A stretch of DNA of 49,743 nucleotides, taken from positions 6,029,026-6,078,768 of the forward strand of contig FN649728.1 of NCBI GenBank assembly GCA_000310025.1, given 5' to 3'. Origin of the DNA: Ectocarpus siliculosus. Its lineage: Eukaryota; Sar; Phaeophyceae; Ectocarpales; Ectocarpaceae. Both the position numbers and the translations under genes were made by a program. The notes under the pieces were generated by a model. It did not search any database, was not told where the DNA came from, and saw only the letters and a program-made list of their open reading frames with translations. This document shows positions 665-39,070 of this stretch, piece by piece (position 1 is the first letter of the stretch; each line of letters begins with the position of its first letter).

Positions 665-2752
665 TCAATCCTTGGTTGAATAAGCCAGAATCTGGTCGAC
701 GAGCTTTCGGTGGATGGCCTTCGTAGTGCTCTTCGTGAAGAGGTCGGCAGGTAGATCTCCCGACGGTACGTGATATACGCTCAAGCGTCCGCTTTCGATG
801 AGCTCCGTTGTGAACCACTTCCGCAGCTGAAGGTGCTTCGTCCTGGCGCTGTAGGAGTTGTTACTCACTAGCGATAGAGCGCCCGTCGAATCATTTCCGA
901 TCCGAATGTTGCTGAACTGATTGAGGAATCCGAGTTCCGACAACATGTCTTGAATGTGGCAGCATTCTCGTGCTGCATAGGAGATTGAAACCATCTCCGC
1001 CTCCGTTGTGCTGAGTGCAGTCAGCGATTGAAGTGATGAAGCCCATGAAATGGGCGCGCCGCACAGAAGAAAAAGGTATCCACTTGTTGACCTCCTCTTC
1101 TCAAGGTCTTGAGCAAAGCTTGCGTCTGCCCAAGCTTGGATCTTGAAATCCCTGCTCTTGAACACGATGTCCAACTCTGGCCGTTGTTTGAGGTACCGGA
1201 GTACATGCTTAGCCCTGGACATGTGCGCCTTGCTGGGTTTGCTGGTAGCCCGTGTCAATTCAAGCACAGCGTATGATATGTCCCAGCGGCTTGTCGGGCT
1301 CAAATACAAAAGGCTTCCGACTAAGCTTTGGTACGTCTTGATGCCGTCCTCGTCGAGTAGAGTCTCCGCTGGCTGATCCAGCGATAGCTCTCCTCCGACG
1401 CTTGGCGTGCTAACTGGGTTGCAGTCTTGCATCCCAAATCGTTCGAATAGTGAAGTGGTGTAGTCCGTTTGGCTGATCCGGAGGGTCTTCTTTACTCGGT
1501 CGCGTGTGATCTTCATCCCCAGGATGAGGGACACCTCTCCGAGATCGCTCATGGTAAAGCGGTCCATAAGCTGCTTCTTCTTCTTGACGAGTAGCTTCTT
1601 GTCCGGCGATGTCAGGAGAATGTCATCGACATAAATTGTTAATAGACAGTATCCTCCCCCAATTTCTGTGATGTACATGCACGGGTCCGTCTTTGTAGCC
1701 CTGAATCCCATCGCCAGAAGAGCCTTGTCCAATGTGAGATGCCAAACGCGGCTTGCTGTCCGCAGTCCATAAACAGCTTGCTTTAGCTTCATGATGAAGG
1801 GTTTTCCTTGAGCGTCAAGCTTCTCGTATCCAGGAGCTTGTCGCACGTATGTCGGTGAGTCGATAGGGCTTTGAAGGAACGCCGTCTTGACGTCCAGCAT
1901 CAAAATATCCCAGTCAAAATGGCAGGCGATGGCCATTAGTATCCGTTGACTCTCGATGCGGCAAACCGGTGCAAAGGTTGCCCCGCAATCGATTCCAGGT
2001 CGCTGAGCATATCCTTGACAGACAATTCTTGCCTTGAAAGTGTAGTCGCTCTTGACCTTGAACACCCACCGCGATCCGATGACCTTGTTTCCGACCGGAA
2101 CCGCCGATCTTGGGATGAGGTCGTAGACGTTGTTCTCGTGAAGGCTCGCCATTTCCTTGTCCATTGCCTTGGACCATTGTGCGCTGTGTGTTGACGCCTT
2201 GGCTTCCTTGAACGTGTTGGGCAGCGTAATGCTGGCAGGATCCGGGTTGGATTGGGTGATTGTTTCCGTGACGTATGCATACTCCACGAGTGAACTACGT
2301 TCCGGCCCGTGCGCATAGTCTTCTTTCTCGAACGTGGCCGACGTAGCCAGTCGTTTCAATTCGAGTCTCGTTTTTCCGTCTAGCCCCGCAGTGTCCACAC
2401 TCGGGGGGTCTTGGGCTGGTCCCTTGGACCGTAATGTCCTGCTCAAAGATGTGACAGGTCCCTGCGACCGTAGTGATGTTGCCCTGTCTGGCGATGTATC
2501 AGGAAGCAATGAAGAACTTGAGGGGTCATGTCCCTGCGTCGAGTCCTCTCCGTGGTCAAATGACGTTCGGCTACTCGGTGTTCCCACAGAATCCGGTGTT
2601 GATGGCGGATCAACGTGACCCCTGAACCGGTTGTCGTGAGTGGACGTGGTGAACCCTCCAAATAGTTGTTCTTCTCCAACTCTTGGTCCTCCTCGTTGTT
2701 GGGTTCCTCCCTGGTTGTGTCGAGGAGGGGTAAATGTGCAAGAATGTCCCAA
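665..2752 (-). pseudogene. copia reverse transcriptase-RNase H
   Basis: This 695-residue open frame carries the copia RT domain (RVT_2), with VFKVKSDYTFKARIVCQGY and LDVKTAFLQSP upstream of the catalytic YVDDILLTS. The C-terminal RNase H follows, with ADASFA, the STTEAEM motif and TKHLQLR. It would copy element RNA into DNA inside virus-like particles. The first roughly 180 residues are the variable integrase-RT linker. The frame differs from that of the integrase ORF, and the two overlap between 2443 and 2752. A single-base indel within that overlap, or programmed frameshifting, is therefore needed to join them. The RT and RNase H cores themselves look intact. Confidence 0.92.
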
Positions 2753-3258
2753 CGATACGCTTCATCAGCGTCGTTGTTATCTGCATCTTCGTCTTCGTCT
2801 TGATTGGACAGGAGCTTGTCTTGTCCAGCTTCCGGTATTGCAGTTGGCGGCGTCTCAATGAACGTGACATTCCGGCTTTCCGTAATCCGGCGGTTGTGTG
2901 GATTGTAGACTCGATAGGACTTGCTGTCCTTGCTGTACCCCAGCATGATGCCTTCCCAAGCCCTCTGTTCTAGCTTGTTGCCGTGTCTCTCGTTGTGCAC
3001 GAAGGCCCTTGCTCCAATACCCCTCAAACCCGAAAGATTTGGTTCTTTCCCAAATAGCTTGGAGTATGGCGAGCTTCCGCCAAGTGCACGATGAGGAGAG
3101 CGATTAATAAGGAAGACCGACGTTTCGCATATTTCTCCCCACAGGAACTTCGGAAGTCCAGTGTCGATGAGGATGCACCTTGTCATGTTCATTATCGTCC
3201 TTCCGTCACGTTCCGATACACCATTCTGCTGAGGAGTATTTGTCGATGCAAACTCCAT
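2443..3258 (-). pseudogene. copia integrase, C-terminal half
   Basis: The ORF begins inside the integrase core with NTPQQNGVSER, which contains the final catalytic Glu of the D,D-35-E triad. It continues with the copia-type C-terminal pattern LPKFLWGE, INRSPHRAL, ARAFVHNERHGNKL, GIMLGYSKDSKSYRVY. It is in the same frame as the upstream gag-protease-integrase ORF and is separated from it only by the TAG at 3289-3291. It runs out of frame at 2443 after an acidic linker. Confidence 0.88.
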
Positions 3259-3288
3259 CTTTATTCCGGTTTCCCTGCAGTAGCTCCT

Positions 3289-5040
3289 CTAGTACTCAGC
3301 CACGTACTCTCCGCTTTTGTCGCAGCGTAGACGCTGCACCCTTAGCCCCAGGGGGATGACGTAGTCCTGAATGAAATAAGTCAGGGTGTCGATAGCTTGA
3401 TCCTTGGAAGATATCGGGTAAACCGCTTTCCATCTGGTGTGGTGATCCGTGAACTTGCTGAAATAGTTGGACCCGTCCTTTGCTTGAGGCTTGAACGGTC
3501 CGGCCAAATCCGTGTAGACCAACTCGAACGGAGAGGTTGTCGTGACCGTAGACTCCTTTGGATGCTTGAGCTGAGCACTTTTCCCAAGCTTGCAAACCTT
3601 GCAAGGGGAAAGATCTCCTTGGAACAAAACACCCGAGTCAGGCTTGGAGCGCAGCGTCTTCATGCTGTTCTCGTTCAGGTGTCCGAGACGACGGTGCCAG
3701 TTGTCCGTGTCCTCGTTGGTAGCAGGGAATGCCGACTGTGCCTGAGCTGATGAAATCTTGGGGAGAATCTTCAAATCCACCTTGAAGATCGACCCATCTC
3801 GCCTCAGAGGAAAGTGAACGTTTTTCCGTTTCAGTCTAGGAACATCCGATATGATGGTTTCTATTCCCTTCGTCTGGGCAGCTCCGGATGAGAACAAGTT
3901 CCGTCCGATCCCCGGAACTATCGTGATGGGTAGACGCGCCACATGCGTCTTGCCGTGGATGTCGGTGATGCCACACCGTATGTAGCCTGTAGCTGTTCCA
4001 CGCAGCTTGTGCAGGCCTGCCGTGGTTATGACACGGGATGGGACCAGTCTACGATAATCTGTCATCATCGCCTTGATCCCTGGAACCAGTTTGTCGTCGA
4101 TGTAGTGAGCGGATGCTCCGCTGTCCACCATCATCGGCAAGCGGGCAGTGTTGTGGTCCGATGTGGAGAGGCTTTCTTCCTCTTCCGTGACTGTGAACGA
4201 GAATCCCATGGCTTTTGGGATGTCATCGCTGTCTTGATCCGATGTCGTAGAATCCTTCTCCTCAGAAGCTTGAAGAGACAACTTGATGTGCTTGAACACC
4301 CTAGCGATGTCTTTCGTTGAGACGCTGTCGCTTGATGACTCATCTTCTTCAGCAGCTGCGTTGGCGAAGTTGCTCTTGCCCTGCCTGTGCTGTTTCCTAG
4401 AAGACTTCGGTGCGGCCTTCCTAGCCGCTGATGCTTTGCATTCTGAGGTGTCGTGGGTGTGTGTTTTGTGGAAAGAACACCATTTCTTCTTTCCGGTCGT
4501 GTCGCCGTTCTGACAGGGTGTGGATGTGTCGCCACCGAGGTTGTCGGCCGATCCTCCCGTCTTCGTGCAGTCTTTCTGGTAGTGTCCAAGCTCACCACAC
4601 GAGTAGCATCTGACCTTTGACGTGTCACGTCTAGCTGGACCAGCTGCCATAGCTGATCCCCTTCCTCTGCGCCCGGATGTTGCATATCCGTCCATGTGCA
4701 TGTTCTGAATAGTGAATTTTAGCTGCTCCAGAGTAAAATCTGGATTGCTCATGACGTGGAACTTGATGGACTCGTACTCTCTGGGCATCCCCCTCATGAT
4801 GGTGTCCATTTTTCTGTGCCGCGAAACATGCTCTCCTACCAGCTCGAGCTGCTCGGCGAGCTGGTCAATGTTCCTGAAGAAGGTGTCCGGATCGGATCCT
4901 TCTTCCATTCGGAAGTTGGCAAGTCTTGTCATGAGTTGTTGCCTCCTGTGAGTTGACTTGTTCTGATGCTTGTTCTCCAGCGCAAGCCAGGCTGCTTGGC
5001 CGTCTGCCTTCCTTCCTTTCTTCGACTCGTACGTGCGCAT
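3289..5040 (-). pseudogene. copia Gag C-terminus, protease and integrase N-terminal half
   Basis: Domains in order are a UBN2-type Gag segment with MRGMPREYESI, a zinc knuckle CYSCGELGHYQKDC, and the aspartic protease motif DSGASAHYIDD. The integrase HHCC finger follows (WHRRLGHLNE ... CKVCKLGK), then the first two catalytic Asp residues in VYTDLAGP and LRCDKSGEY. The ORF ends at a TAG (3289-3291) nine codons after the second Asp. The next ORF resumes in the same frame with the remainder of the core, so this is an in-frame nonsense change. Confidence 0.92.
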
Positions 5041-5082
5041 AAAACACTTTGCGTCTCCACTGGTAGTCAGGAATAAGACATT

Positions 5083-5601
5083 TTATAGTAGAGCGTTGAT
5101 CTGCTCCCATTCATCAATCTCACGTTGATTCTGAGGTGGCCCAGGTTGTTCCAAATCTCGCGCTTGAAGATCCGGCGATCCTGTCCCGGGACTGTCACGA
5201 TCCGCAGTCCTTCCTGGTATCACAACAGCAGTCGCCGCACTGCTGGCTGATGATTTTTCTTGAGTTCCTACAGCCTTGCTGCTGTCCCCGTCAGCGACTT
5301 CCTCGCTGGGCACCGGGGCTTCCATGGTGCCTGATGCACGGGCTCGCCGCGCATAGATCTCCTTCGGTCTTGAGGAGTCGCCATTCAATATCTCGAACAT
5401 GTCCCGCCGAGATAATTCCAGAACGGTCTTGATGTCGACCTTCCAATCTTCATACTTGTTTGGATTCCCGTCGAACTTCGGGATGCCTCTGACGATCGAC
5501 GTGAGCTTGCCGGTGGACTCTGCCATGATGTTACACCAGCTGCTGTGCTTGAGGGCTTGTACTTGCTTGTTGGATCCTGGAGCTCCGCCAGTCCGATCCA
5601 A
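5083..5601 (-). pseudogene. copia Gag N-terminus
   Basis: The frame encodes a Gag N-terminal region with PKFDGNPNKYEDWKVDIKTVL, typical of the copia capsid start (DUF4219/UBN2 neighbourhood). It ends in TAA at 5083-5085. The following ORF at 5040 is in the same frame and continues Gag with ESKKGRKADGQAAWLALENK. The 14 codons between are open, so one nonsense codon splits Gag. The start at 5601 or at an internal Met near 5525 are both possible. Confidence 0.8.
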
Positions 5602-5730
5602 TTTCTCGTGTTCTTGATTTCCGTCGTAGATCTCGTAGATCCAGAAAGTATTCCTCGCTTCCAGATCTTGTCACGAGTCCCGAATCTTCGTTTCCTCGAC
5701 CTTGACCTCGAACGATGTGCCAGAGCGCTA

Positions 5731-15113: not shown

Positions 15114-15420
15114 TTTTTTTTTTTGTTCTTCACTTCAAATCAGCGCTCACAGCACTAGTGCCGTTTATTCCAACCCGTGGTCACACAGAAGAGCCTCTCT
15201 CTACCCTCCCCTCCTGCGGTACTTCGCCTTCAATTTTTAATGCGAGAAGAGTTCAGCACTCTGTTCCCTCTGTGTACACACGAACTAGCGCTATCCACTT
15301 GGCCAGGAGCGGAAGCGAGAGAATAACTCGCTTTGAAAGAAAAGCTCGCCTACGCCGGGATTCGAACCCCTGACCTGACCTCTAGAAGGTTATGAGGCTA
15401 CCAACTAGACCACCGCCCGG
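15114..15420 (-). mobile_element. tRNA-derived SINE, full-length copy
   Basis: On the minus strand the element starts with a tRNA-like head. The A box TGGTCTAGTTGG is at 15401-15412 and the B box GGTTCGAATCC at 15358-15368, the correct spacing for an internal RNA polymerase III promoter. The anticodon-loop region reads CCTCATAACC, resembling tRNA-Met. Acceptor and T stems are poorly paired, so this is not a working tRNA. A second A-box-like TGGCCAAGTGG lies at 15295-15305. The body ends in a poly(A) run (plus-strand T run 15114-15124). CATGGAGCACCAT flanks both ends and could be a target duplication, although it equals the array unit. Confidence 0.75.
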
Positions 15421-17200
15421 TTTTCATGGAGCACCATGAAGCACTTGATTTGTAACGTGTTTCTCACGCTTCCCATGGAGCACCATGGAGCACCATGGTG
15501 CACCAGCACTTGATTTCTAAAATGTTTCACACTCTTTCCATGGAGCACCATGGAGCACCATGGAGCACCATGGAGCACTTGATTTGTAATTTTCTTTCTG
15601 CACTTTCCATGGAGCACCATGGAGCACCATGGAGCACTTGATTTGCAAAATGTTTCACATGTTCGCCATGGAGCTCCATGGAGCACCATGGAGCACTTGA
15701 TTTGTAAATTGTTTCTCACGCTTCTTATGTAGCACCATGGAGCACCATGGAGCACTTGATTTGAAAAATATTTTCCACGCTTCCCATGGAGCTCCATGGA
15801 GCACCACGGAGCACCATGGAGCACCATGGAGCACCATGGAGCACTTGATTTGCAAAATGTTTCACACTTTTCCCATGGAGCACCATGGAGCACCATGAAG
15901 CACCATGGACTTGATTTGTAAAATGTTTCACAATTTTCCCATGGAGCTCCATGGAGCACTATGGAGCACCTTGGAGCACTTGATTTGTAAAATGTTTCAC
16001 ACTTTTCCCATGGAGCTCCATGGAGCACCATGGAGCACCATGGGGCACTTGATTTGTAAAGTGTCTCACTCCTCCCATGGAGCACCATGGAGCACCATGG
16101 AGCACCATGAAGCACTTGACTTGTACAATGTTTCACACTTTTCCCATGGAGCTCCATGGAGCACCATTGAGCACCATGGAGCACTCGATTTGTAATAATA
16201 AAGTATTTCTCACGCTTCCCATGGAGCTCCATGGAGCACCATGGAGCACCATGAGGCACTTGAGTTGTAAATTGTTTCTCACGCTTCCCATGGAGCACCA
16301 TGGAGCACTTGATTTCTAAAATGTTTCACACTTTTCCCATGGAGACATGGAGCACTCGATTTGTAAAGTGTTTCTCACGCTTCCCATGGAGCTCCATGGA
16401 GCACCATGGAGCACCATGAGGCACTTGATTTGTAAAACGTTTCTCACGCTTCCCACATGGAGCACCATGGAGCACCATGGAGCACTTGATTTGTTTAATG
16501 TTTCACAGAGCTCCATGGAGCTCCATGGAGCACCATGGAGCACTTGATTTGCAAAATGTTTCACACTTTCCCCATGGAGCTTAATGGAGCACCATGGAGC
16601 ACCATGGAGCACTTGATTTGTGAAATGTTGCACACTTTTCTCATGGAGCTCCATGGAGCACCATGGAGCACCATGGAGCTCCATGGAGCACATGATTTGT
16701 ACAGTGTTTCTCACGCTTCCCATGGAGCACCATGGAGCACCATGCATGGAGCACTTGATTTGTAATTTTCTTTCTACAACACTACCCATAAAGCACCATG
16801 GAGCACCATGGAGCACCATGGAGCACCATGAAGCACTTGATTTGTACAATGTTTCGCACTTTTCCCATGGAGCACCATGGAGCACCATGGAGCACTTGAT
16901 TTGTAAAATTTTACACGCTTCCTATGGAGCTCCATGGAGCACCATGGATCACCATGGAGCACTTGATTTGTACAATGTTTAACACTTTTTCCATGGAGCT
17001 CCATGGAGCACCATGGAGCACCATGGAGCACTTGACTTGTGAAGTGTTTCTCACGCCTCCAATGGAGCACCATGGAGCACCATGGAGCACCATGAAGCAC
17101 TTGATTTGCAAATTGTTTCATACTTTTCCCATGGAGCTCCATGGAGCACCATGGAGCACTTGATTTGTGAAATGTTTCACATTTTTCCCATGGAGCACCA

Positions 17201-27657: not shown

Positions 27658-30600
27658 TCAGTGGATGGCTCCCTCGGGGACGCACTGGTGGAACTGCTCG
27701 TTGCGCTCGACGCACTCGGCGCCGGGCCAGCAGCACTCGGGGCCTTCCCGGTGCAGCCCTCCGCACTGCCCCCAGCCCTCGGAGCAGCGGTCGCCGCGGG
27801 GGCGGCACTGGAATCGGATCGAAGAAAGCAAGCAAGACACGAGAAAGCACACACGACACACAGGCAGGCGGGCGGAGTTGTTGGGACGGCGAAGAGGAGA
27901 GAGTCCACGGCGAGTCACAATGGTTGGTAGAAGAGCACACAAACATAGTGGCGATTGACGAACACTCTCTTGCTGGGTAAGCCGAACGCTCTATCCCGGG
28001 TAAGACGAACACGCTAACCCTAACCGCAGCCGAAGGATCCAAAAGTTGGCGAACTCAACGGAAGGGAGGGAGGGAGGGAGGGAGGGAGGGAGGGAGGGAG
28101 GGAGGGAGGGAGGGGGGCGTTTCAAAGGAGGCATTCTCATCACCGGAGCGGGGCATCCCCGACGCGGACGCGTCCACAGAGGGGGAGTGGGGGCAACGAG
28201 TATTGTGGGGGAAGAATAATCCACGTTGGAGAACCACACCGGGAGGGGGGGGGGCGTTCTCGCGGAGAGGCGTTACTGAAAGGAGGGGGGCGTCCTCAAG
28301 GCGTGTGCCACTACACCCACAGAATAAAAGCAACCTATCAATCGACGCCGACACTTTCGGTCAGCCAGTCAGTCGCGTACACAGCAAAGAAAAACAACCG
28401 ACCCAACTAACTGCCGACGTTGTACCTCAGAGTAGCAGTCGGCCATCTTCTCGCACTCGTAGCCGGCCCTGCAGCAGGTGGACCCGTCGTACCCCGCCCC
28501 CCCGCACTGGGCGAACGCACCGACGGGGTCCTCGCAGTCGGGGTCGGTCGAGACAGGGGGGGGCACCGACGGCGCGAAGGTCGCCACGATCGGCTCGGTC
28601 GGAGAGTCCATGGGCGTGGCCGGCTCGAGCTCGGCGGTGGGCGCGGGCGTGGGCTCGTCGGTGTCCTCTTCCTCGTCGTCATCATCGACCGTCGCGGGCG
28701 CCGGCGTCCGCGCCTCGTACTCCTCCTCCTCTTGTTCCGCTGTCGTGGGCGACGGCGTCATCGGCTCTTCGTGCTCCTCTTCCGGAGTCGGGGCGTACGT
28801 GGGCTCGTACTCTTCGACGACGGCCGTAGGCGCCGGGGAAGGCTCTGTGGCTTCGTCCACGGGGGCCTCGGGTTTTTGGGGGGTCTCCGGGGTGGGGGCG
28901 GGCGCGGGCCCGGGGCCCCCGTCTGGTCGTCGATTGGAAAGAACCGCGGCAGCCGCGGCGGCGGTGGTAGGTATTGGTTGCAGACGTCAGAGTCTTGTGT
29001 GTGTGAATGTCGTGATTGCATTCAGTGGTGAAGGATCTTGTTGCTGCGAGCATAGCAGTAGGAAGATCGGTTGAGGATAGCACGTAGGGAAGGCTTATAA
29101 AAGCTCACCCACGGTGGCGGCGGGGAAGGGGGAGGGAAATCAACATCAGAGAGTTCACGTAAATGAGGGAGGACCGCGACTGATTCCCTTTTCGCGGCAA
29201 CGATCAAACCATGCTGACTGCTGTCAGGATGCCACAACAAGGTGCCTCTACCTACACCAAGAAGCGCTACTGGTGGTGGGATGGAAGGTCGGCATGGGTC
29301 ATGAGGAGCCTTACCGGACGTGATCGAGACATCGGCGCAGTTCCAGAACTCCTCCGGGTAAGCGTCGCCGTCGCCGCACTGCCCGACGGCCTCGTTGATC
29401 CAGTCGGCCTTGGACGGGGCGCACGAGCTTGGCCACGAGGGAGGGTTGAACTCGGCGTAACCTTGGTGCTTGCACGAGTTGCCGGTGTCTGCGATGTGGC
29501 GAGAAGTGCGGGGCGGGGTTCTGCTGATTCAAGCGTGAAATAATGCTGGTGCGCGAGTGAGCCTTGCCGGACATCTCACGTTGTGTAAGTGGAGGTGTCG
29601 GGACAATAAACAATACAACCAAAATCAACTCGAAAAAAGGCTGCTGCGCCGGGGTCTAGTTATTTTCCGTGCTGAAGCTACCGTGCACAGCGCTCAGAAG
29701 AAGATAGCGCCCGGGTCCGATCTACAACGCCACTATATAGTGTTGGCGCATGAACAGAGGGCCGTCGTAACGCGGGTTAAGATGGACCTGTTCATCGGGT
29801 TGTTCGTCAAAATAGTTCCCAGCAAGCAAATGAGACTCATCCTTCCGGAAACAAGATAACAGGTTTTGCTCCACAGTAGCATACCGGCATCACAACAACA
29901 ACAACAGTGCAGTGCTCTAAACGGTGTTTGTGCGGCATCGTCCCTGCCTTGGATGCCGCCGGACAATATAGATTGGCACCATCTGCCACCAACAACGCGC
30001 TTCGACGATCACGACGTGGAAATCCACAACAACAACCAAGTCTCAACATCAACAACAACGACTCACAGTAGGCCATCTGGACAACGCAACGCTCGCAAGT
30101 CACCCCCTGGGGTAGCTGGAACCGGGCGGTGGCCACGTCGCCGGCGAAGGCGCCTGGCAGGAGTTCCTGGTCGGTTTCGCTGGCGCGGCAGGGGGGGTCG
30201 AGGATGAAGCGCCCCCTGTTGAGGGGGTCGATGGGGCCGTTGAACTCGTCGTCTTCCGCGCGGTCCAGGGGGTACTCGTTGAAGCAGGACTGCGTGACGA
30301 CGCTGTCGGGGCCGTCCGGGAGGTCGTCGGCGTCGCAGAGGAACATCTCGACATGGCCCTGTCAGGAAAATAGGTGTGTCAGAGGCGCATGGAAAGATTG
30401 GTAACAGACAGGTTGGATTTGGAAGACACGGGGAGAGACTATTCGTCCGCGCTAAAAGAAGAGGCTGGCAAGCGTCAAACGAGAACAACGAGGTTGTTCA
30501 GTGCGGGGATCTTGGGGGAGAGAGGAGAAAGGTGCCCGGTTTTCGACGAAAAGTTCAACTTCATAGTAAATTGCGGACGTTTTCGCTTCAAGGTATATGG

Positions 30601-32508
30601 CGTAGGGCATTCTATTTCCTCACAATATCTGCCGGCAGAAGTCAAGATGATCGTGATGTCTTGAGTCGTGCATAAAATTTGCGAGGATGATGGGAGAAGA
30701 GTACGCGTAGAACAAGGCTCTTCGTTTAGAGCATGCCCACAACATGCTTCTTTTTCGTATATTGATTGGACGCACCCAGTGGTAGGTCGACACGACGATC
30801 TTGACCTCGAGGATGCCTCCTTCGGCGTACGTCTCCAGCACGGGGTAATTGCTGTTCTCCTGCCCGTACTTGTTGGAGCCTTCGGCCGCGGTCTGAAACC
30901 AAGAGGAAACGGAGAAAGGCGCGCACGGGTTGCAAAAAAAGAAAAAATGAGTACTCCTCTTTCTCCATGTCTGGTCATGTATGTACATGCAATAGTGAAT
31001 GGAAAAGTGATCTGATTGGATGAGGCCTCTCGTGCGCGGGCGGGAGACTTCGCCTTGTAGTACATGATCCATGGGTATATTGGACAGGCCGACGACGATG
31101 CAAATAATATTCATGGGTATTCGAACAGAGGTATAAACTATTAAGACACACGGGTATTGGAACCGATTCGCTTGCAAGCAACATTAATGTATGCTGTGCT
31201 GTACAGCAGTACACATGCACTACAGTAGGGTGTGGCCTATAGAAAATTGGTGATCAACGCTGCTCGGTTATTACAAATCCCGAGACGTTCGATGAGATCC
31301 ACCGGGTGGTTCATGATTTGCTCCATAAGTTGGATCCACCATCGGTCTGATAGGTAATAACGCAATAACCTCGACAACAGTCAGATATAAATCTTTGTGA
31401 CGCCTCCTGGCTTTCCCCTTTCCCCCGCCCTCCCCCATTTTCGTCCACCGCGTCGTCGGTCGATGGACTCCTCCGCTATCAGCATGACGTTCAGACCAAA
31501 ACAAACAACCGCATAACAGTAGTCTACACTGCCACAGCAATACCTGCTCGGGGTCGCCGCAGACCCCGTGCCTCTGAGCCACCTCGTCACTCTCGATGTA
31601 GTTCCCGTTTTTAGCACGTTCCCCGTTGAAGTGGGGCCACGGCTGGTCGCCACCACGCGCGCGGATCGCGGCCGGCCCACGGCTCTGGAAACAGTGTGGG
31701 CAGTAATTTATGTCCGGCGATCCCCTATGGAGGGTAGGAGGAGCAGCAGGCATAGCCGCGTGTGTGTGTCGTTGGGCTGTGGGAATTTGATTTTGTGTTT
31801 TTTGTTCACTTCAAATCAGCGCTCAGCACCTGTTGCCGTTTGTAACAACCCGTGGCCACACTGGAGGGTTCCACTCCCTGAGGCCCCCTGCCCACTCCGT
31901 CCTGTGGTTCTTCGCGTTCAAGTTTCTATGCGAGACGAAAGGATCCGAAAAAAAGTGGTATCTTGGCAGCCGTAGACGGATCCTCAGTATCTTTGGTACA
32001 CACATACATACATCCCCAATCGTCACGACGAGCAGCCAGGTGCACACATTGGCCGACTCGCGTTGTGGCCCAAACTACTGCTGTACGTGCCTAAACGTCA
32101 CCGAGTGCTCTCTCTCAACAGATGTTATGGATTGTTACGGTGAGGGGAGAGAGAGGTGCATGGCACAAGCTACCGCCACAAGCTACTGCCACCGTGGATC
32201 CTGAATTTTGGCATCTCCACAACAGCAGTGTAATCTAGTCGTACTCTGTAGGTCGTACAGTAGCAAAGTAGTAGCTGTCATCACACACACTGCACACTGC
32301 AACCCGTCATGTCACTTCTGGCTGCGGGCTGAAGTACACGCGCAAGCTACAGCATTGATTCTCAAACTCACGGTTCTTGGAAGGCTTCTGTGCCCCACAG
32401 CTGGCGCGAGACCGGGTTCATCATGTAGACGTGACCATCGCTGACAGGCAGCTGGGCGAAGAATCCGCTGGCGGCGAGAAGTGCTGCGGCTGCTGCTGTC
32501 CTTGACAT
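27658..32508 (-). CDS. secreted lytic polysaccharide monooxygenase-like protein with two CBM1 modules
   Basis: Seven exons splice in phase with GT-AG introns: 32508-32372, 31724-31544, 30892-30776, 30358-30067, 29488-29315, 28922-28426, 27807-27658. The product is 515 residues. A signal peptide of about 25 residues ends VSDG, so the mature protein starts at His26 (HVYMMNPVSRQ), as copper LPMOs require. The catalytic domain continues with YCPHCF (53-58), GVCGDP (99-104), the second histidine-brace candidate His144 in STYHWGH, RFILDPPC (195-202) and CERCVVQMAYYTG. It ends with EFWNCADVSI, where Phe290 fits the axial position. A Pro/Thr/Glu-rich linker (about 301-429) leads to CBM1 modules at about 430-469 and 474-508. 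It should oxidatively cleave cellulose or chitin outside the cell. The family is chitin-binding type 4 (AA10/AA15-like); which one, and the substrate, are uncertain. Confidence 0.9.
28062..28114 (+). repeat. (GGGA)n microsatellite in intron 6 of the LPMO gene
   Basis: About thirteen GGGA units in a row on the plus strand, giving a (TCCC)n run on the transcribed sense strand of intron 6 (27808-28425). G-quadruplex formation on the plus strand is plausible. Confidence 0.95.
31797..31936 (-). mobile_element. tRNA-derived SINE, diverged 5'-truncated copy 3
   Basis: It matches the SINE body at 15114-15246 over its length, with landmarks ACTTCAAATCAGCGCTCA, AACCCGTGG.CACAC, and TATGCGAGA near the head side, but with many substitutions. 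It lies in intron 1 of the LPMO gene (31725-32371) in the same orientation as the gene. It is clearly older than copies 1 and 2. Confidence 0.75.
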
Positions 32509-33015
32509 TGCTGTGATGATGTTGGGCCCTTGTGGTCTAGACCTGTTGATGGTGGTGCTGATTGCAGGAGTTTCGGTGATGGATCACAGCTCGAGGAACA
32601 CTCTTGTTGGGAGAGGGAGAGAAGAGGTGGGAGGAGAAAGTGTGAGTTCGTGGGGTGAGGTAGGAAGGTGCGGTAGGTAGGGTGTGTGGGAAAAGATCTG
32701 TTGGAGATCTATTCAACAGCTGTATTGATACCGTTGCGGAACAAAAAAAAAAGTGAGAGTTGTGCTGATTTGCTTCATCAACGGTTTTGAGAGACGGTGG
32801 ATGTTCATGCATCTCTCACACTCATCGCAGGAGGAAGAGACCGTCGTGCATATGACTGTTGTAAACCGGGCGGCGTACGGCAGGGAGAGATAAGGGGCAC
32901 AGGCAAGAGAGATAAAGAAGGGTGGTTGGTGTACACACAACATCGCTACATCCTCCGTATGTATGTAGACTACGTGCACGTACGTACGTAGGTACTACAA
33001 TGTAAATGTTTCAGA
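32509..33015. other. upstream region of the LPMO gene
   Basis: This is the 5' flank of the minus-strand LPMO gene. Purine-rich GGGAGAGGGAGAGAAG at about 32610-32630 and a GGTAGGTAGGG stretch are visible; no clear TATA box. No separate gene is recognised. Confidence 0.4.
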
Positions 33016-33253
33016 TTTATTTTGTTTTCTTTCGAATTGCTTCATTATTTCTTCGGTTTCTAGGCTACGTGTTGGGGAGAGAGACGCACGAAACGCTCAT
33101 CGTCTCTCCGGCCGCGTTAGCTGCAAAGGCCGGCGTCAACTCTTACAAATCCATCTCTCTCCCCACAAATACTAGCCGGGGGACTACGACTGCAAACGCA
33201 GGAGTCCCAAAACTGACCAAGTCCTCAAATGGTACACACCATTCTACAACACC
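33016..33253 (-). repeat. split direct repeat B2 (outer)
   Basis: 238 bases matching 33585-33823 except for one C in a CTCCCC run. It forms the 3' terminus of the element on the minus strand. A 68-base spacer (33254-33321) separates it from A2 and shares only TACCGAATA with the flank of B1. Confidence 0.9.
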
Positions 33254-33321
33254 TGACTAGATACCGAATATTCCCGAACTTATGCCCCCACCTTCGAAAG
33301 AAAAGGGATGGGAGGGCGGGA

Positions 33322-33584
33322 TTTTCTAAACTGCCGCCGCTACTGCGTTAGGCGGCTGCTGCTGTCCTTCCGTTGCTTCACGCGCTCTGTAGCTGTCACA
33401 CGTTACCCGACTTTGCTACAGCCCCTGCGTGGACTCGATCACGGAATGACACCCCCAACTATAGACTAATAATTCCAAACACCGTGACCCTGGGTTTCCG
33501 GTAGAAAATGAAGCCAAATTCTAATTCGACTGTTACAAAATAAACACCAGTTTATTCTATCTGCTTCGACGAACAAACCTTCCT
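33322..33584 (-). repeat. split direct repeat A2 (inner)
   Basis: 263 bases matching A1 with a single A/C difference (GTCACACG versus GTCACCCG). Its edge abuts B1 without a gap at 33584/33585. Confidence 0.92.
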
Positions 33585-33823
33585 TTTATTTTGTTTTCTT
33601 TCGAATTGCTTCATTATTTCTTCGGTTTCTAGGCTACGTGTTGGGGAGAGAGACGCACGAAACGCTCATCGTCTCTCCGGCCGCGTTAGCTGCAAAGGCC
33701 GGCGTCAACTCTTACAAATCCATCTCTCTCCCCCACAAATACTAGCCGGGGGACTACGACTGCAAACGCAGGAGTCCCAAAACTGACCAAGTCCTCAAAT
33801 GGTACACACCATTCTACAACACC
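33585..33823 (-). repeat. split direct repeat B1 (inner)
   Basis: 239 bases, near-identical to B2. It lies about 40 bases downstream of the recombinase stop codon on the minus strand. Confidence 0.92.
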
Positions 33824-33864
33824 CACATCGAGGTCAGTTTCTGGACGACTACCGAATAAGTCAA

Positions 33865-35019
33865 CTATCCGTTCCCCCAGACGGTCCCCTCCCCCGGCTG
33901 TCTCGATACGATCCTACTGCCGTCTGTAAGTTTCCGTGACACTCGCCGCGAATCCTCTACATTGTTTCGCGCGTACGGCTTGTATGCATCCGACCTCCAC
34001 TTCCCTTCTCTCTGAATCACTCGTTCTGCGATGTCTCCGCCCGATGCAAGAGCCGTCGCGCCTCCAATTCGCAACGATTGCAACGCGTACTCCTGGGGGT
34101 TACGCCCCGACCTCGCTACCACTTCTCTGAGTGCACGGAGGGCAGCAGTATACCTCACTACTCTCACTGCTCTTCCACTACGGTACGAAGCCAACGGTGC
34201 GGAGTCAGGGAACGTCGCATGACACGATAACAGCTCCACCACAAGAGCCACCGCGCCACCGCGTGCTCTCACACCTGACTGCGGTCCGGTGACTTCGTCT
34301 CGCGTACGAACCCGTATGTTTCCTTTCTGCTCTTGATCGGCCTTGTGCCCTCTAAACCTCATTTCGACACGGTCTGCTCTACGATAGTGACTAAAGACTA
34401 ATTGCGTCTCGCCAGCAAACAATGCTACGTCCGCCCTCGTAAGACAGTGTGCCTCATGCACCCTGCCCGCATCATTCGCGAACACCTCATCAGACCGTGT
34501 GATAAAGAGATAGGACAAGCACAGACACAGCCACATCACTCTGCCCCCTTCCCCCCAGTTCTGGCTTGCGCTTTCCCCGTCCAGCAGCATACGCCAAGAC
34601 ACAGGCAGGCGCACACGGCGTACCGTCCCCACAGCCACGTGGTTCCTCGCAATCCCCCTTAGCGCACATTTCAACATCGGAGACGACAAGTCTAGCTCGA
34701 CAGAAGCTTCCAGCCTATGAAAATGTTGTACAGCCGTGAGTTTTCCGGATATTGTACTCGCTAGATTACCCTCAGACTCGAAACACCAGGCTACGAAGTC
34801 TATCAACTCCCACACATGAAGGTCCCCGGCACGTTGCCCTAGGAACTTGGGCTTCTCCGTCAGCCTGCGAAACGTGCACCAAGAGTTGAAGCCTGACGTG
34901 TAAGTCCTTCTAGACGAAGACGCAACTGAGTGCTCGACGAGCTGCATGCCAAGACGTCGGTAACAAAGTCCCGTCCTGCCTGTCCCAGGTCCTGAACCTG
35001 CTGATAGCCCTGGAGCCAA
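33865..35019 (-). CDS. tyrosine recombinase of the split-repeat element
   Basis: The frame gives about 384 residues. An N-terminal SAM-like segment (SSRRTYTSGFNSWCTF) leads to the catalytic core. The first catalytic Arg is in YLFITRSDEV (Arg175), the second-box motif is QSLRIGGATALASGG (Arg317), and WRSDAYKPYAR supplies Trp341 and the nucleophile (Tyr349, or Tyr346). DIRS-type recombinases usually have HSLR, and here the His is Gln314. It would integrate circular or linear element DNA by Tyr-mediated strand exchange. The frame is continuous with the upstream zinc-finger frame except for one TAG at 35113-35115, so no certain start can be chosen. No frameshift is seen, and the core looks intact. 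Confidence 0.85.
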   Translation of the reverse strand: MAPGLSAGSGPGTGRTGLCYRRLGMQLVEHSVASSSRRTYTSGFNSWCTFRRLTEKPKFLGQRAGDLHVWELIDFVAWCFESEGNLASTISGKLTAVQHFHRLEASVELDLSSPMLKCALRGIARNHVAVGTVRRVRLPVSWRMLLDGESASQNWGEGGRVMWLCLCLSYLFITRSDEVFANDAGRVHEAHCLTRADVALFAGETQLVFSHYRRADRVEMRFRGHKADQEQKGNIRVRTRDEVTGPQSGVRARGGAVALVVELLSCHATFPDSAPLASYRSGRAVRVVRYTAALRALREVVARSGRNPQEYALQSLRIGGATALASGGDIAERVIQREGKWRSDAYKPYARNNVEDSRRVSRKLTDGSRIVSRQPGEGTVWGNG

Positions 35020-35112
35020 CCTCGTGTAGACCGGCGTGCTGCCGTTCGATTTAGCCGCAGGTGCGCTGCCATCCGAGGTAGGCCCCCCCGCTACGCGGGA
35101 GAGCCCGCACCC

Positions 35113-36061
35113 CTATTTGTCTTTCCCGTGGGTGAAGAAGCCAGCGGCCTTGGGTCTCGCGCCGCCCTCGCCAGCGGCGCGCGCCTCTCCTCCGCGCCCT
35201 CCCCCGTTGCCGTGGCCAACGCCGCGCGCGCCGGTTGCCGGAGTTTCGGACGCTCCGCGCCTAGCGTGGGAAGGGTTCTGGGCGTGGATGTGTGGGCAGT
35301 TACGATCATGGCAACCGGACGACGAGTTGAAGGCGAAGCAGTAACCACGAGCGTGTCGAGCGATGCCGCCACTTTCTCTGTCACCAGGACGCCTTTGCGA
35401 AGCAAGGATTGCCACTCCATCTGCGACAGTTTTGAAACTGCCGGGGGCCGCCCCAGGATGAGCCACGCTTTTACCCGGCGGAGGTCCCCCCACATCCGCG
35501 CTCTATCCTTTGCCGTAGCCTTAGCCCGCCTCGGCGCTGGGTGTAGCGGGGGCCCGAGAGGCCGATGGTGGGGCGGTTGTGCCCACAAGTTGCACCCCCC
35601 CCCGGAAGGCCAGGTCCTGCTGCTTGGGTGGCGATCAGGTCGTCGATCGTTGCTTGAAGCTGCTGGCGATCACCGGCAGCCTCATCGCGCTTCCGCTGCA
35701 GCTCCTCCCTCAGGCCGTCCACCAGCCCGCGGAGAGAAGCGAGCTCAGTCTCATCAGCGGGGGGGTCGCCGCGGGTGCCTGTCCCTGGCGCTCGCGAGGA
35801 GGATACCGCTCGACGCCTCGCGGGAGTACGTGATCCGCTGCGCGTCGAGGGGCGAGCCGTCGAGCTCGCCACCGATCGCGCGGTAGACCTCTCGTGCGTG
35901 GTGTCGAAGGTGTCGCCGCCCGACCTCGCCCTGCTTGCCCAGCCGCTGCCCTGCCGCTCCGCGTGGAGGCCCGTGTCGGCATCTGGTCGCGGTTGGAGTC
36001 GTATAAGCAGCGGACCGGCGGCAGGCGGCGGGCGAGCGTCAGGGCGGCGTTGCGGGAACAC
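35113..36061 (-). pseudogene. Gag-like protein with coiled coil and CCCH-type finger
   Basis: Three overlapping frames appear to form one protein. The 5' frame (36061 to about 35580) is Arg/Pro-rich and then coiled-coil (DETELASLRGLVDGLREELQ). A middle frame (about 35530-35380) carries RRVKAWLILGRPPAVSKLSQ. The last frame (about 35370-35113) carries CFAFNSSSGCHDRNCPHIH, a C-x8-C-x4-C-x3-H finger, then Gly/Arg-rich sequence and HGKDK-TAG. Similar fingers occur in Gag of DIRS-like elements. At least two frame changes are needed, so this copy is probably damaged, or my frame path is wrong. The finger frame is the same as that of the recombinase. Confidence 0.5.
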
Positions 36062-36365
36062 TTCTTTTCCTCTTCATCGTGGGCGTAGTCGATCGCGCGC
36101 CTGGATCTGCAGTTAGAATGGTCTACAAATCCTATCTTCGGGCGAAACTATCTGACGTGGGTTTTCGTCGGGCCCAGAACGACGCGTTGTTATATCGCGA
36201 GCTCGCGTTAGTTCATTCTCGACGCCTGTGGATTGAATGGAGTGATTATTGCTGCTGACGCTACGGTCACCGGACGTCGACCAATCCCGAATATTTCTCT
36301 CTTTGGAACACTAGCGATGGGTTTCTCTTTTTTTTTTTTTTATATATATATTTTCTTGGATTCGG

Positions 36366-37275
36366 TGAACCCCGGTTCGCCATCGGCACGGGTGCTTCCA
36401 CTCATTGGCGCGTCCCGTGCTGATACGTGTTTTTTTTTTTTTTTCGATGCGTTGGATACGGTGAACTCCACTTGCCAACAGCGCGGGTGCTTCCACTCAT
36501 TGGCGCGTCCCTCGCTGAAACTGACAACACATATGCAGCACGGGTGCTTCCACTCATTGGCGCGACCCGCACTGATGATACTTGTACGCAGCGCGGGTGC
36601 TTCCACTCATTGGCGCGTCCCTTGCTGAAACTGACAACACATATGAGCACGGGTGCTTCCACTCATTGGCGCGTCCCGTACTGATACGTGTATGACTTCG
36701 TTTTCGATGCGTGGAGATCGGTTAATTCTACTCGCCCAACAGCACGGGTGCGCCCACTCATTGGCGCGTCCCGTACTGATACGTGTACGGCGTTTTTGTT
36801 CTTTCTTTTTGAGATCGGTTAACTCTACTCGCCAACAGCACTCATTGGCCCGTCCCTTGCTGAAACTGACAACACATATGCAGCACGGGTGCTTCCACTC
36901 ATTGGCGCGTCCCGTGCTGATACATGAACGGCGTTTTGTTCTTTCTTTTTGAGATCGGTTAACTCTACTCACCAACCGCACGAGTGCTTCCACTCATTGG
37001 CGCGTCCCGTGCTGAGGCTGACATCACATATGCAGCACGGGTGCTTCCACTCATTGGCGCGTCCCGTACTGATGCATGATTTGTGGTATTTTTCTACCGC
37101 TGCGTTGAATTCGGTTAACTCTACTCGCCAACAGCGCGGGTGCTTCCACTCATTGGCGCATCCCGTGCTGATACATGTATGACTTCGTGTTTCGTTGCGT
37201 TGAGATCGGTTAACTTCCACTCGCCAACAGCACGGACGAGTGCTTCCACTATTGGCGCGTCCCGTGCTGGTGCGT
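36366..37275. repeat. minisatellite inside the split-repeat element
   Basis: About twelve copies of a unit centred on CACTCATTGGCGCGTCCC occur, spaced 50-100 bases apart. Two alternating spacers are seen, one with TGAAACTGACAACACATATG and one with GAGATCGGTTAACTCTACTC. It lies between A1 and the Gag-like region, where a leader would be. Minus-strand frames reading GRANEWKHP repeats are products of the repeat. Confidence 0.9.
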
Positions 37276-38423
37276 GTCCTTGTTTTTTTTATTTTCATTG
37301 AGATCACTTCCGCATAGACAATCCTACGGCAGGTTGACGAGTTTTTGGCATGCATCAATTGCTGTCCGGGCGTTTTTGGTCGCTTAATCGTCGATGGACG
37401 TGACGTATTCTTATAGAAGGTTTGTGTCACGGCGGCAATAAATTTGACGTGATGCCCCTCGAGACCGTGATGCACTCACATGGACCGCTACCTGACGTTC
37501 CTCGCGAGTTCGAACCTCGCGTGTCACATCCACCTCCCCCCCCTATTTTTTTCTCATCTTCTTTTTCCTTATGCATACAGCACGTAGTTCGCTGTCTCGT
37601 TTTTTTTTTCTCGTCTTCATTGTTTTTCAGTCTTTTTCTTTGAGTCTTTCTCTCGCATGCATGTGTTTTTGCTTTTATCCGTTCCCGTGAATGCTGTTGA
37701 ATGCACTTTCCGATTACGTATGCGGCCGCTTTGTATGCCATGGGACTTGTCGATACCATCAGTGGGGACTTGTCAATACCATCCGTGGAGACGATTGCTT
37801 ACGTGAGTGGGCATATTATCGTCGATTCCTTCAGCTATATGCCCCTCTGTGCGCGGCACAGACAAGATTGTACCGGCAAGTAGTCCCTAGTAAGCCGGGG
37901 GAAACAGAAAACAAGGCACCTGCCTCATGTGCATAATCGTGACAGCATCATGCCCTACTGCCGCGGGTCGATTGGTTATGTCCGATGCCGCAGGGTTCCT
38001 CCACCCCGTGCAGTACAATGGCTGCTATCAACCGCGACAAGTCAGCGTGCGACCATACAACAGGCCCCGCTCTTTCTTTTTGCCGTTGAATTTTTTCTTC
38101 AGAGAGAGTACGTCTGGTTGGGACGAACCGCATTTTTTTTCTTCAGCGAGAGTACGTCTCGGTTGGGATGAACCGCATCCCATGTTTGGGAAGGGACCTA
38201 TCTGAGCGGCGCGGCGAGCGAGACTGCGTTGGCTTGCCGCCGCTTATCTTACTGCACCCTCCCCCCTCGTGCTAAATGCACGCAGCGGTGAGGTCACAAG
38301 AGTAGCGGGACGCGAATAGGAACACGGCCGACACGATGGATGTTGGACACGAGTACACACCTTTATATGGAGAGTCGCGTGCTGGTCACTTCCCCAATGC
38401 TTGCGCCGTGTCCCGTCCCGCCC
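37276..38423. other. non-coding 5' internal part of the split-repeat element
   Basis: No recognised protein on either strand. It contains a T-rich stretch (37545-37660), a doubled GACTTGTC.ATACCATC.GTGG unit (37743-37795) and a doubled GAGAGTACGTCT.GGTTGGGA unit (38101-38170). RT motifs were looked for here and not found. Confidence 0.55.
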
Positions 38424-38686
38424 TTTTCTAAACTGCCGCCGCTACTGCGTTAGGCGGCTGCTGCTGTCCTTCCGTTGCTTCACGCGCTCTGTAGCTGTCA
38501 CCCGTTACCCGACTTTGCTACAGCCCCTGCGTGGACTCGATCACGGAATGACACCCCCAACTATAGACTAATAATTCCAAACACCGTGACCCTGGGTTTC
38601 CGGTAGAAAATGAAGCCAAATTCTAATTCGACTGTTACAAAATAAACACCAGTTTATTCTATCTGCTTCGACGAACAAACCTTCCT
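38424..38686 (-). repeat. split direct repeat A1 (outer)
   Basis: Forms the 5' terminus of the element on the minus strand and matches A2 with one difference. Its right edge is set by loss of homology after ACCTTCCT. TTTCAGATTTA occurs just outside both ends of the element (about 33009 and 38695), possibly target-related. Confidence 0.92.
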
Positions 38687-39070
38687 ATTTTTTTTTTCAG
38701 ATTTAGGAACACAAAAAAAGAAACATATTGTAACCGCTCCGGGGTACTGGGCGATATGATGAGCGTTGTACGACGTCATGATGAGCGTTGTACGTGTAGT
38801 AGCGCAAACTTGAATTATTTGTCGGGGATTCATTCGTTCGTGTCCACAGGATTCACCAACAGCAGCAGAGAGAGTACTGCGGTACATATAACACACAGCC
38901 AACAATTTTTCCACCAACTTCCGTTGTTGTTTTTCGTGGTGTCGCGAAAGTACACATTATGCGCATCATGGCATACGGAAGGCGTCCGCGTCGTCAGTCA
39001 GTCAGTTGGACCAGTACGTGCATTAGAAGGTAGCACTGAACAAGACCGGAACGTTTTATAATTTGAAGAT

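Follow-up and report, generated by a model that had tools for sequence, protein, structure and literature searches.

Ngaro elements, retrotransposons with a tyrosine recombinase (YR), are defined by their split direct repeats (PMC4157794, PMC3783388; statements on published work here and below refer to extracts of the cited papers). The genome of Ectocarpus contains 15 Ngaro families (PMC12477816), as well as a complete element of another kind, DIRS1-like, which has a methylase and a YR of ALOG type (PMC3537659). Here we analyse a 49,743-nucleotide stretch of Ectocarpus siliculosus DNA (assembly GCA_000310025.1, contig FN649728.1, positions 6,029,026 to 6,078,768 of the forward strand), referred to below as the window, which carries on its minus strand, at 33016-38685, a complete split-repeat element with a YR frame and no reverse transcriptase (RT). 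We put the probability at about 85% that this element inserted recently and that it is a non-autonomous derivative, without RT, of Ngaro-like YR-retrotransposons, mobilised in trans by RT-bearing relatives.

The family resembles Ngaro in its A-pol-B-A-B repeats, which run A1-B1-A2-B2 with the internal pair downstream of the YR, in its tyrosine recombinase, and in insertion without target-site duplication, the window copy alone having a 7-base word near both ends. RT-RNase H (RT-RH) is missing from the window and present in the relatives L059, L062 and L063, where the order gag, RT-RH, YR is again that of Ngaro. The window family differs from Ngaro in being without RT-RH and a working gag; against the 15 Ectocarpus families it is set by description only. 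The repeats would fit PAT-like elements as well, which combine split direct repeats with a methyltransferase domain, a domain that is absent from Ngaro. A Pfam search of the three frames of L062 found no methyltransferase, only RVT_1 at E 0.02, below the cut-off. This absence carries little weight taken alone, because Pfam also misses the YR; there is, however, little room for another domain in L062 because its RT-RH and YR frames overlap.

Cryptons have no gag or RT history and no split repeats. They are DNA transposons with a YR domain only (PMC4157794). Membership of this group is ruled out by the split repeats together with the RT-RH and gag remnants. TOC1 of Chlamydomonas reportedly measures about 5.7 kb, has split repeats as well as internal tandem repeats, and contains no RT, and on these features, compared by description only, the window element is similar in repeats, length, tandem repeats and absence of RT. 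TOC elements are placed in the PAT group (PMC3266345, PMC4157794). SIRE is a short derivative of VIPER that corresponds to its A2-B2 region (PMC6681497); a 578-base A-B insertion described below is of the same kind, whereas the window element keeps its YR and most of its length. A parallel in mode of life is TRE5-A.2, which is without ORF2 and is mobilised in trans by TRE5-A.1 (PMC5633606). It too is a derivative served by full-length relatives, but it is a non-LTR (long terminal repeat) element without a recombinase.

A young and abundant RT-less family

The original prediction had described an A1-ORFs-B1-A2-B2 layout of Ngaro/PAT type (ORF, open reading frame), and comparison of the window with itself recovers both repeat pairs in the places and order that it gave. 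One pair, of 274 bases (33322-33595 and 38424-38697), is 99% identical; the other, of about 240 bases (33016-33253 and 33585-33823), consists of two ungapped blocks, each 100% identical, with the register shifted by one base. All features lie on the minus strand. Repeat matches and junctions place the left terminal repeat A1 (T repeat) at 38424-38685. A non-coding leader follows at 36148-38423, within which repeat and copy comparison locates a block of tandem repeats (about 36375-37318), variable in unit number among copies. Translation and alignment to L059 identify 35113-36147 as a gag remnant with a CCCH finger and a broken frame. The YR frame, 415 residues from stop to stop, spans 33865-35112. 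Downstream lie, by repeat match, the internal S repeat B1 (33585-33823) and the internal T-repeat copy A2 (33322-33595), which overlap by 11 bases, then a spacer of 66-67 bases defined by copy comparison (33256-33321 in the window), and finally the right terminal S repeat B2 (33016-33255), bounded like A1 by repeat match and junctions. An Rfam search of the window gave no result.

The start of B2 reads TTTATTTTG against differing flanks in 31/31 left junctions listed (28 distinct places), and the end of A1 reads CCTTCC, followed by T, in 21/21 right junctions listed (17 distinct places). Duplicate rows were removed by hand from these counts, and L015, which was kept apart from the 21 right junctions, fits too. 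Because these exact ends recur, the bounds of the element are 33016 and 38685.

The assembly of 189 Mb was searched with both repeats, with the YR and with RT-RH. The A repeat gave 342 candidates and the B repeat 355, 40 of each being scored, and the YR gave 744 candidate places, of which 101 were scored (102 rows, C257 appearing twice; categories were counted by hand). With so many scored matches the occurrence of the element is no chance, and the further copies that the original prediction had proposed to look for are plentiful, forming a large, near-identical family. Of the 101 scored YR places, 73 run across the join left by the missing RT-RH block, 6 begin at the join itself (residue 37), and 22 start elsewhere. 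The six (C27, C74, C79, C147, C156, C187) all have RT just upstream. C14, likewise RT-bearing, has a split YR and is absent from the scored list. RT-less copies are thus the common form and RT-bearing relatives the rarer (73 versus 6 of the scored places), in a count that may favour the RT-less form, as its query was an RT-less YR. Most RT-less YR frames among the scored places are still open.

The same YR was reached in 19/20 fetched B2 loci, the exception, L038, ending in A2. Six longer stretches were fetched: L049, L050, L051, L052 and L054 are complete copies, while L053 has A2-B2 and a cut B1, with no YR across 7.6 kb. The recent movement claimed in the original prediction is borne out by the five complete copies, which match the window at 99.8-99.9% identity along 2.56 kb and differ from it mainly in tandem-repeat number. 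No fixed internal difference separates A1 from A2 among 16 A1 and 27 A2 copies (duplicates, short and divergent copies having been dropped beforehand), and B1 and B2 show gap columns and zero substitutions in the six complete copies including the window. A second RT-less lineage (L056, L057) is 94% identical to the window. Shorter derivatives also occur (L010, L016, L017), with the A1 end unchanged and much of the gag and leader missing.

RT-bearing relatives and the RT-RH join

A tblastn search of the interval with 23 RT-RH proteins gave 20 rows, 19 of them within 34863-35112 and one in the gag part (P0077, E 5e-5). The 19 rows correspond to two retained ends of RT-RH. Residues 1-39, at 34996-35112, are 94.9% identical to L062 and now form the start of the 415-residue YR frame, and residues 723-768 (the last 46), at 34863-35000, are 97.8% identical and overlap that frame; residues 40-722 are lost. 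The absence of an RT between the repeats is therefore confirmed; the Gag-like sequence of the original prediction is a broken remnant, next to which the two RT-RH ends persist. Since these ends are still in place, the RT was lost by internal deletion from an element of the L062 type.

Such elements occur in the same genome. They were reached with P0013, an Ectocarpus protein whose YR part is 67% identical and which has RNase H-like sequence ahead of the YR (motifs judged by eye), used as a genome query. Among the RT-RH places scored (89 of 490 candidates), nine have 90-100% identity: C14, C74, C27, C79, C147, C156, C187, C85 and C273, the last beside an assembly gap. C74 and C79 have a 768-residue open RT frame. 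In L062 (C74), the gag (564 residues), RT-RH (768) and YR (392) frames are all open from stop to stop; its A1 (58 bases seen), A2, B1 and B2 are 96.6-98.3% identical to those of the window, and its spacer 100%. DNA identity over the main YR stretch is 97.6-98.1%. Over YR and B1, L059 (C14) and the window family share 97.7-97.8% identity; L059 contains a gag with finger, RT-RH and YR, and aligned to it, the window family is without about 2,050 bases of RT-RH. L063 (C27) resembles L062, but its matches reach no further than A2. The original prediction had suggested looking for full-length copies that carry RT-RH between gag finger and recombinase, and such copies are thus present. It had also considered that RT-RH might have been deleted in this copy only. 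An internal deletion did occur, but it is family-wide, and the RT-less form is the commoner one.

The identity of the RT is supported by a structure model of the RT-RH relative P0066 (pLDDT, a model confidence score, 80.6), which matches Ty3 and retroviral RTs with significant E-values (best Ty3 RT, E 5e-11); a PDB sequence search with RT-RH gave no result. A 1341-residue frame with YR at C241 was rejected as an RT-bearing copy, as it spans a gap of N. A second Ngaro-like family, with about 66% DNA identity over the YR, is found at G000:C460 (L058) and C15 (L061). RT-RH and YR share one 1112-residue open frame in L058 and lie in overlapping frames in L061, and RT is found upstream in 11 of the 13 top-listed YR places, C183 and C19 being without.

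The block missing from RT-less elements, 2054 bases in L062, starts CAG/GTGTGGATG and ends TGGCAG/G in 7/7 RT-bearing copies read on both sides (L059, L062, L063, C79, C156, C147, C187), and both boundaries recur in C206, whose RT is 73% identical. The RT-less join reads ATCAGCAGGTTCAGG, with the reading frame that opens RT-RH continuing into the YR, and leaves GCAGGT at 34996-35001, with CAG/GT as after splicing of a GT-AG intron. The boundaries are the same in the two RT-less lineages. The YR tree places the window lineage next to the L062 cluster (support 83/84) and the other RT-less lineage next to the RT-bearing C187 (95/91). In tests run without L016 and L017, a single RT-less clade is rejected by the YR (approximately unbiased test, p 5e-5) and by the combined pieces (5e-4), and is not rejected by a 231-base upstream piece alone (p 0.096); with L016 and L017 included it is again rejected (0.003). 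Recombination with RT-bearing copies could yield the same tree picture.

We give even odds to the view that RT-RH was lost once, by ordinary deletion between the 6-base GCAGGT repeats that flank it, and that the two RT-less lineages share the loss by descent, their YR ends having later recombined with RT-bearing copies. The flanking repeat makes such a deletion possible, the upstream piece does not separate the lineages, and template switching between co-packaged RNAs, which is established for retroelements, would be expected. Moreover, of four distinct deletion joins examined only that of RT-RH fits GT-AG; the other three, all in gag, do not end in this way, and splicing was rejected as their cause. 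The YR and combined trees and the position of the second lineage beside C187 speak against a single loss, as does the finding that, of 216 repeats of at least 6 bases between the two zones of L062, only 4 can be placed as GT-AG.

More tentatively, and in our estimation somewhat short of an even chance, RT-RH might be an alternatively spliced intron. Unspliced RNA would yield RT-RH, and RNA spliced CAG/GT...CAG/GT would yield the YR, the predicted spliced RNA joining ATCAGCAG to GTTCAGG. Spliced YR messages would then have returned to the genome by reverse transcription and integration on at least two occasions, founding RT-less families that outnumber the parent about tenfold in the scored lists, so that the element would keep making its own parasites. 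The GT-AG boundaries, the in-frame join and its identity in two lineages are suggestive of RT-less elements being such retrotransposed messages. Conservation of the donor and acceptor is not counted as proof of splicing, because the same bases encode conserved residues, and the acceptor pyrimidine tract is poor as judged by eye. In copia and BARE1, spliced subgenomic RNAs lose pol sequence (2.9 kb in copia) and make Gag, and DNA copies of the spliced BARE1 RNA could not be amplified (PMC3735527); here, by contrast, the spliced product would be a YR message turned into an abundant genomic form. Neither a spliced-intron origin nor the window family was met in the extracts covered of the literature on split-repeat and on RT-less or non-autonomous YR retrotransposons, retrotransposon RNA splicing, brown-algal Ngaro elements and TOC1.

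Insertion, recombinase and probable supply in trans

RT-less insertions have fixed element ends, keep a T-rich target on one side and show no target duplication. Six copies were read at both ends, and the exact shared duplication is at most 1 base; the five other than the window copy share no word longer than 4 bases near their ends. The empty-site comparison proposed in the original prediction was possible at L025 (G000:C14:3549120-3552391), where a solo A-spacer-B insertion of 578 bases (locus positions 1501-2078) is nested in the leader of another copy. The window's own leader provides the paralogous empty site, CTGTCTCG/TTTTTTTTTTCTCGTC, and the filled site is CTGTCTCG/element/TTTTTTGTTTCTCGTC, with length neither gained nor lost. 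This is what a circle joined by a YR to a T-rich target should look like. The 578-base insertion may be the split-repeat counterpart of a solo LTR, or a mini-element comparable to SIRE. In L016 the junction with another copy falls at this same position of the leader. At L079 (G000:C12:1581800-1583420) there is a tandem B1-A2-B2-A-B array whose extra joint has the sequence of the internal B1/A2 joint, the pattern that insertion of an A-B circle there, or unequal exchange, might leave.

The window YR found no match in Pfam or in a PDB sequence search. Protein relatives reach 94% identity; the only relatives with a named organism come from Ectocarpus sp. CCAP 1310/34, at 67% for the YR and 57% for RT-RH. 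One relative, P0058, carries PF00589. Of 60 relatives, 58 keep R206, 59 keep K257, 50 the histidine of HxxR (7 gaps) and 44 Y380 (15 gaps). Judged by its structure model (mean pLDDT 76.5), the protein is a Cre-fold tyrosine recombinase: nearly all of the 33 PDB matches with E up to 0.001 are titled Cre or its derivative Tre (best Cre, E 6e-8). In the window, glutamine (Q345) replaces the catalytic histidine of HxxR. Four RT-less YR frames can be read whole, and this position is Q in the window and L052 and H in L049 and L054; the frames of L050 and L051 are shifted. The window and L052 also share one change in A1, so an element with the altered histidine was itself copied.

The YR seems to be under weaker constraint once RT is lost, as indicated by branch changes polarised on tree neighbours (5 replacement and 3 silent in the RT-less branch, 2 and 11 in the RT-bearing cluster) and by pairwise dN/dS (ratio of replacement to silent rates), which is 0.16 for L054-L062 and rises to 0.35-0.64 in pairs that include the second RT-less lineage. 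It may also be poorly expressed in the common form, because TAG stands directly before a G7C run, a possible gag-pol shift site, in the three copies checked (window, L049, L054). L059, L062, L063, C79 and five RT-less copies that keep more gag have TGG there; C187, C147 and C156 do not match the pattern.

None of the six complete copies translated, the window copy included, has an intact gag frame. Compared with L059, the window gag is missing 510 bases at a join near 35349 and a further 79 at one near 35222-35226. The five gag-keeping copies (C269, C137, C71, C11, C344), found with the L062 gag, have the RT-RH join and the 79-base deletion identical to the window family; L056 and L057 have the same RT-RH join and a different gag deletion, of 688 bases.

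The broken gag of six copies, the shared H-to-Q change and the apparent loss of constraint on the YR favour supply in trans. RT is most likely provided in this way, in agreement with the first of two options in the original prediction, and Gag and YR probably too; partners with nearly identical repeats are present in the same assembly. The genome holds RT-bearing elements with gag, RT-RH, YR and split direct repeats; the RT-less family, by sequence, derives from such an element through loss of RT-RH residues 40-722 and parts of gag; and its copies end and join targets as a YR product would. The RNA of an RT-less copy would be copied to circular complementary DNA by the Gag and RT-RH of the relatives, by way of the shared repeats, whereupon a YR, its own or a relative's, would join the A/B circle junction to a T-rich target.

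Several observations weigh against this reading. The RT-bearing copies may no longer be active. Although the frames of L062 are open, 2 substitutions separate its B1 from its B2, and the stretch fetched does not cover the whole of its left end. L059 has a broken RT frame and a broken YR frame, the RT frame of L063 ends early, and the RT matches at C187 and C85 contain a stop. Foldseek TM-scores (template modelling) of the RT model are low, at 0.22-0.33 on query length. The window copy carries TTTCAGA near both ends, which can be read as a duplication. The contrast in YR changes is marginal (Fisher test, two-sided p 0.056, one-sided 0.041), and the YR may act in cis, because most RT-less YR frames are still open.

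The second option in the original prediction, that the element moves and multiplies as a DNA circle through its recombinase alone, with no reverse transcription involved, a new transposition mode, appears very improbable. It would draw on those open frames and on the recurrence of exact A/B joints, including the C12 array at L079. The RT-bearing partners carry nearly the same repeats, however, the YR seems to have lost constraint, with its HxxR histidine altered in two copies, unlike what one would expect of a recombinase transposon that sustains itself, and excision and insertion alone would not explain many copies that all hold the A and the B pair. A new transposition mode is not needed. 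Least credible of all is a dead family whose copies look young only through segmental duplication or assembly error: some copies do have broken YR or gag frames and the YR copy at C241 holds an N gap, but the same left end meets differing flanks in 28 distinct places, tandem-repeat number varies among copies, and a nested insertion has a paralogous empty site.

Neighbouring sequence and implications

Elsewhere in the window, 665-5670 (minus strand) encodes in long frames a copia-type polyprotein with zinc knuckle, integrase, RT and RNase H judged by motif, and 15405-16921 (minus) is a minisatellite-like block encoding a long run of tandem peptides (HGAPWCSMVLHGAPWE-like). Pieces at about 28369-32583 (minus) may represent a CBM1 cellulose-binding module and a polysaccharide monooxygenase, by motif resemblance. 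In the assembly at large, light-harvesting genes are plentiful, with 87 matches of which many are pieces of exons, whereas the RuBisCO large subunit gave no match.

Non-autonomous YR retrotransposons seem to be little described, few having been met in literature searches. In the present case a young family with a YR frame and RT-bearing partners with nearly the same ends occur in one assembly, which makes the use of RT, Gag and YR in cis or in trans directly testable. The loss of RT-RH at an apparent splice site gives a hint of the way in which such parasites originate. Should the RT block indeed be a spliced intron, this would explain both the expression of a YR that overlaps RT-RH out of frame and the source of RT-less derivatives.

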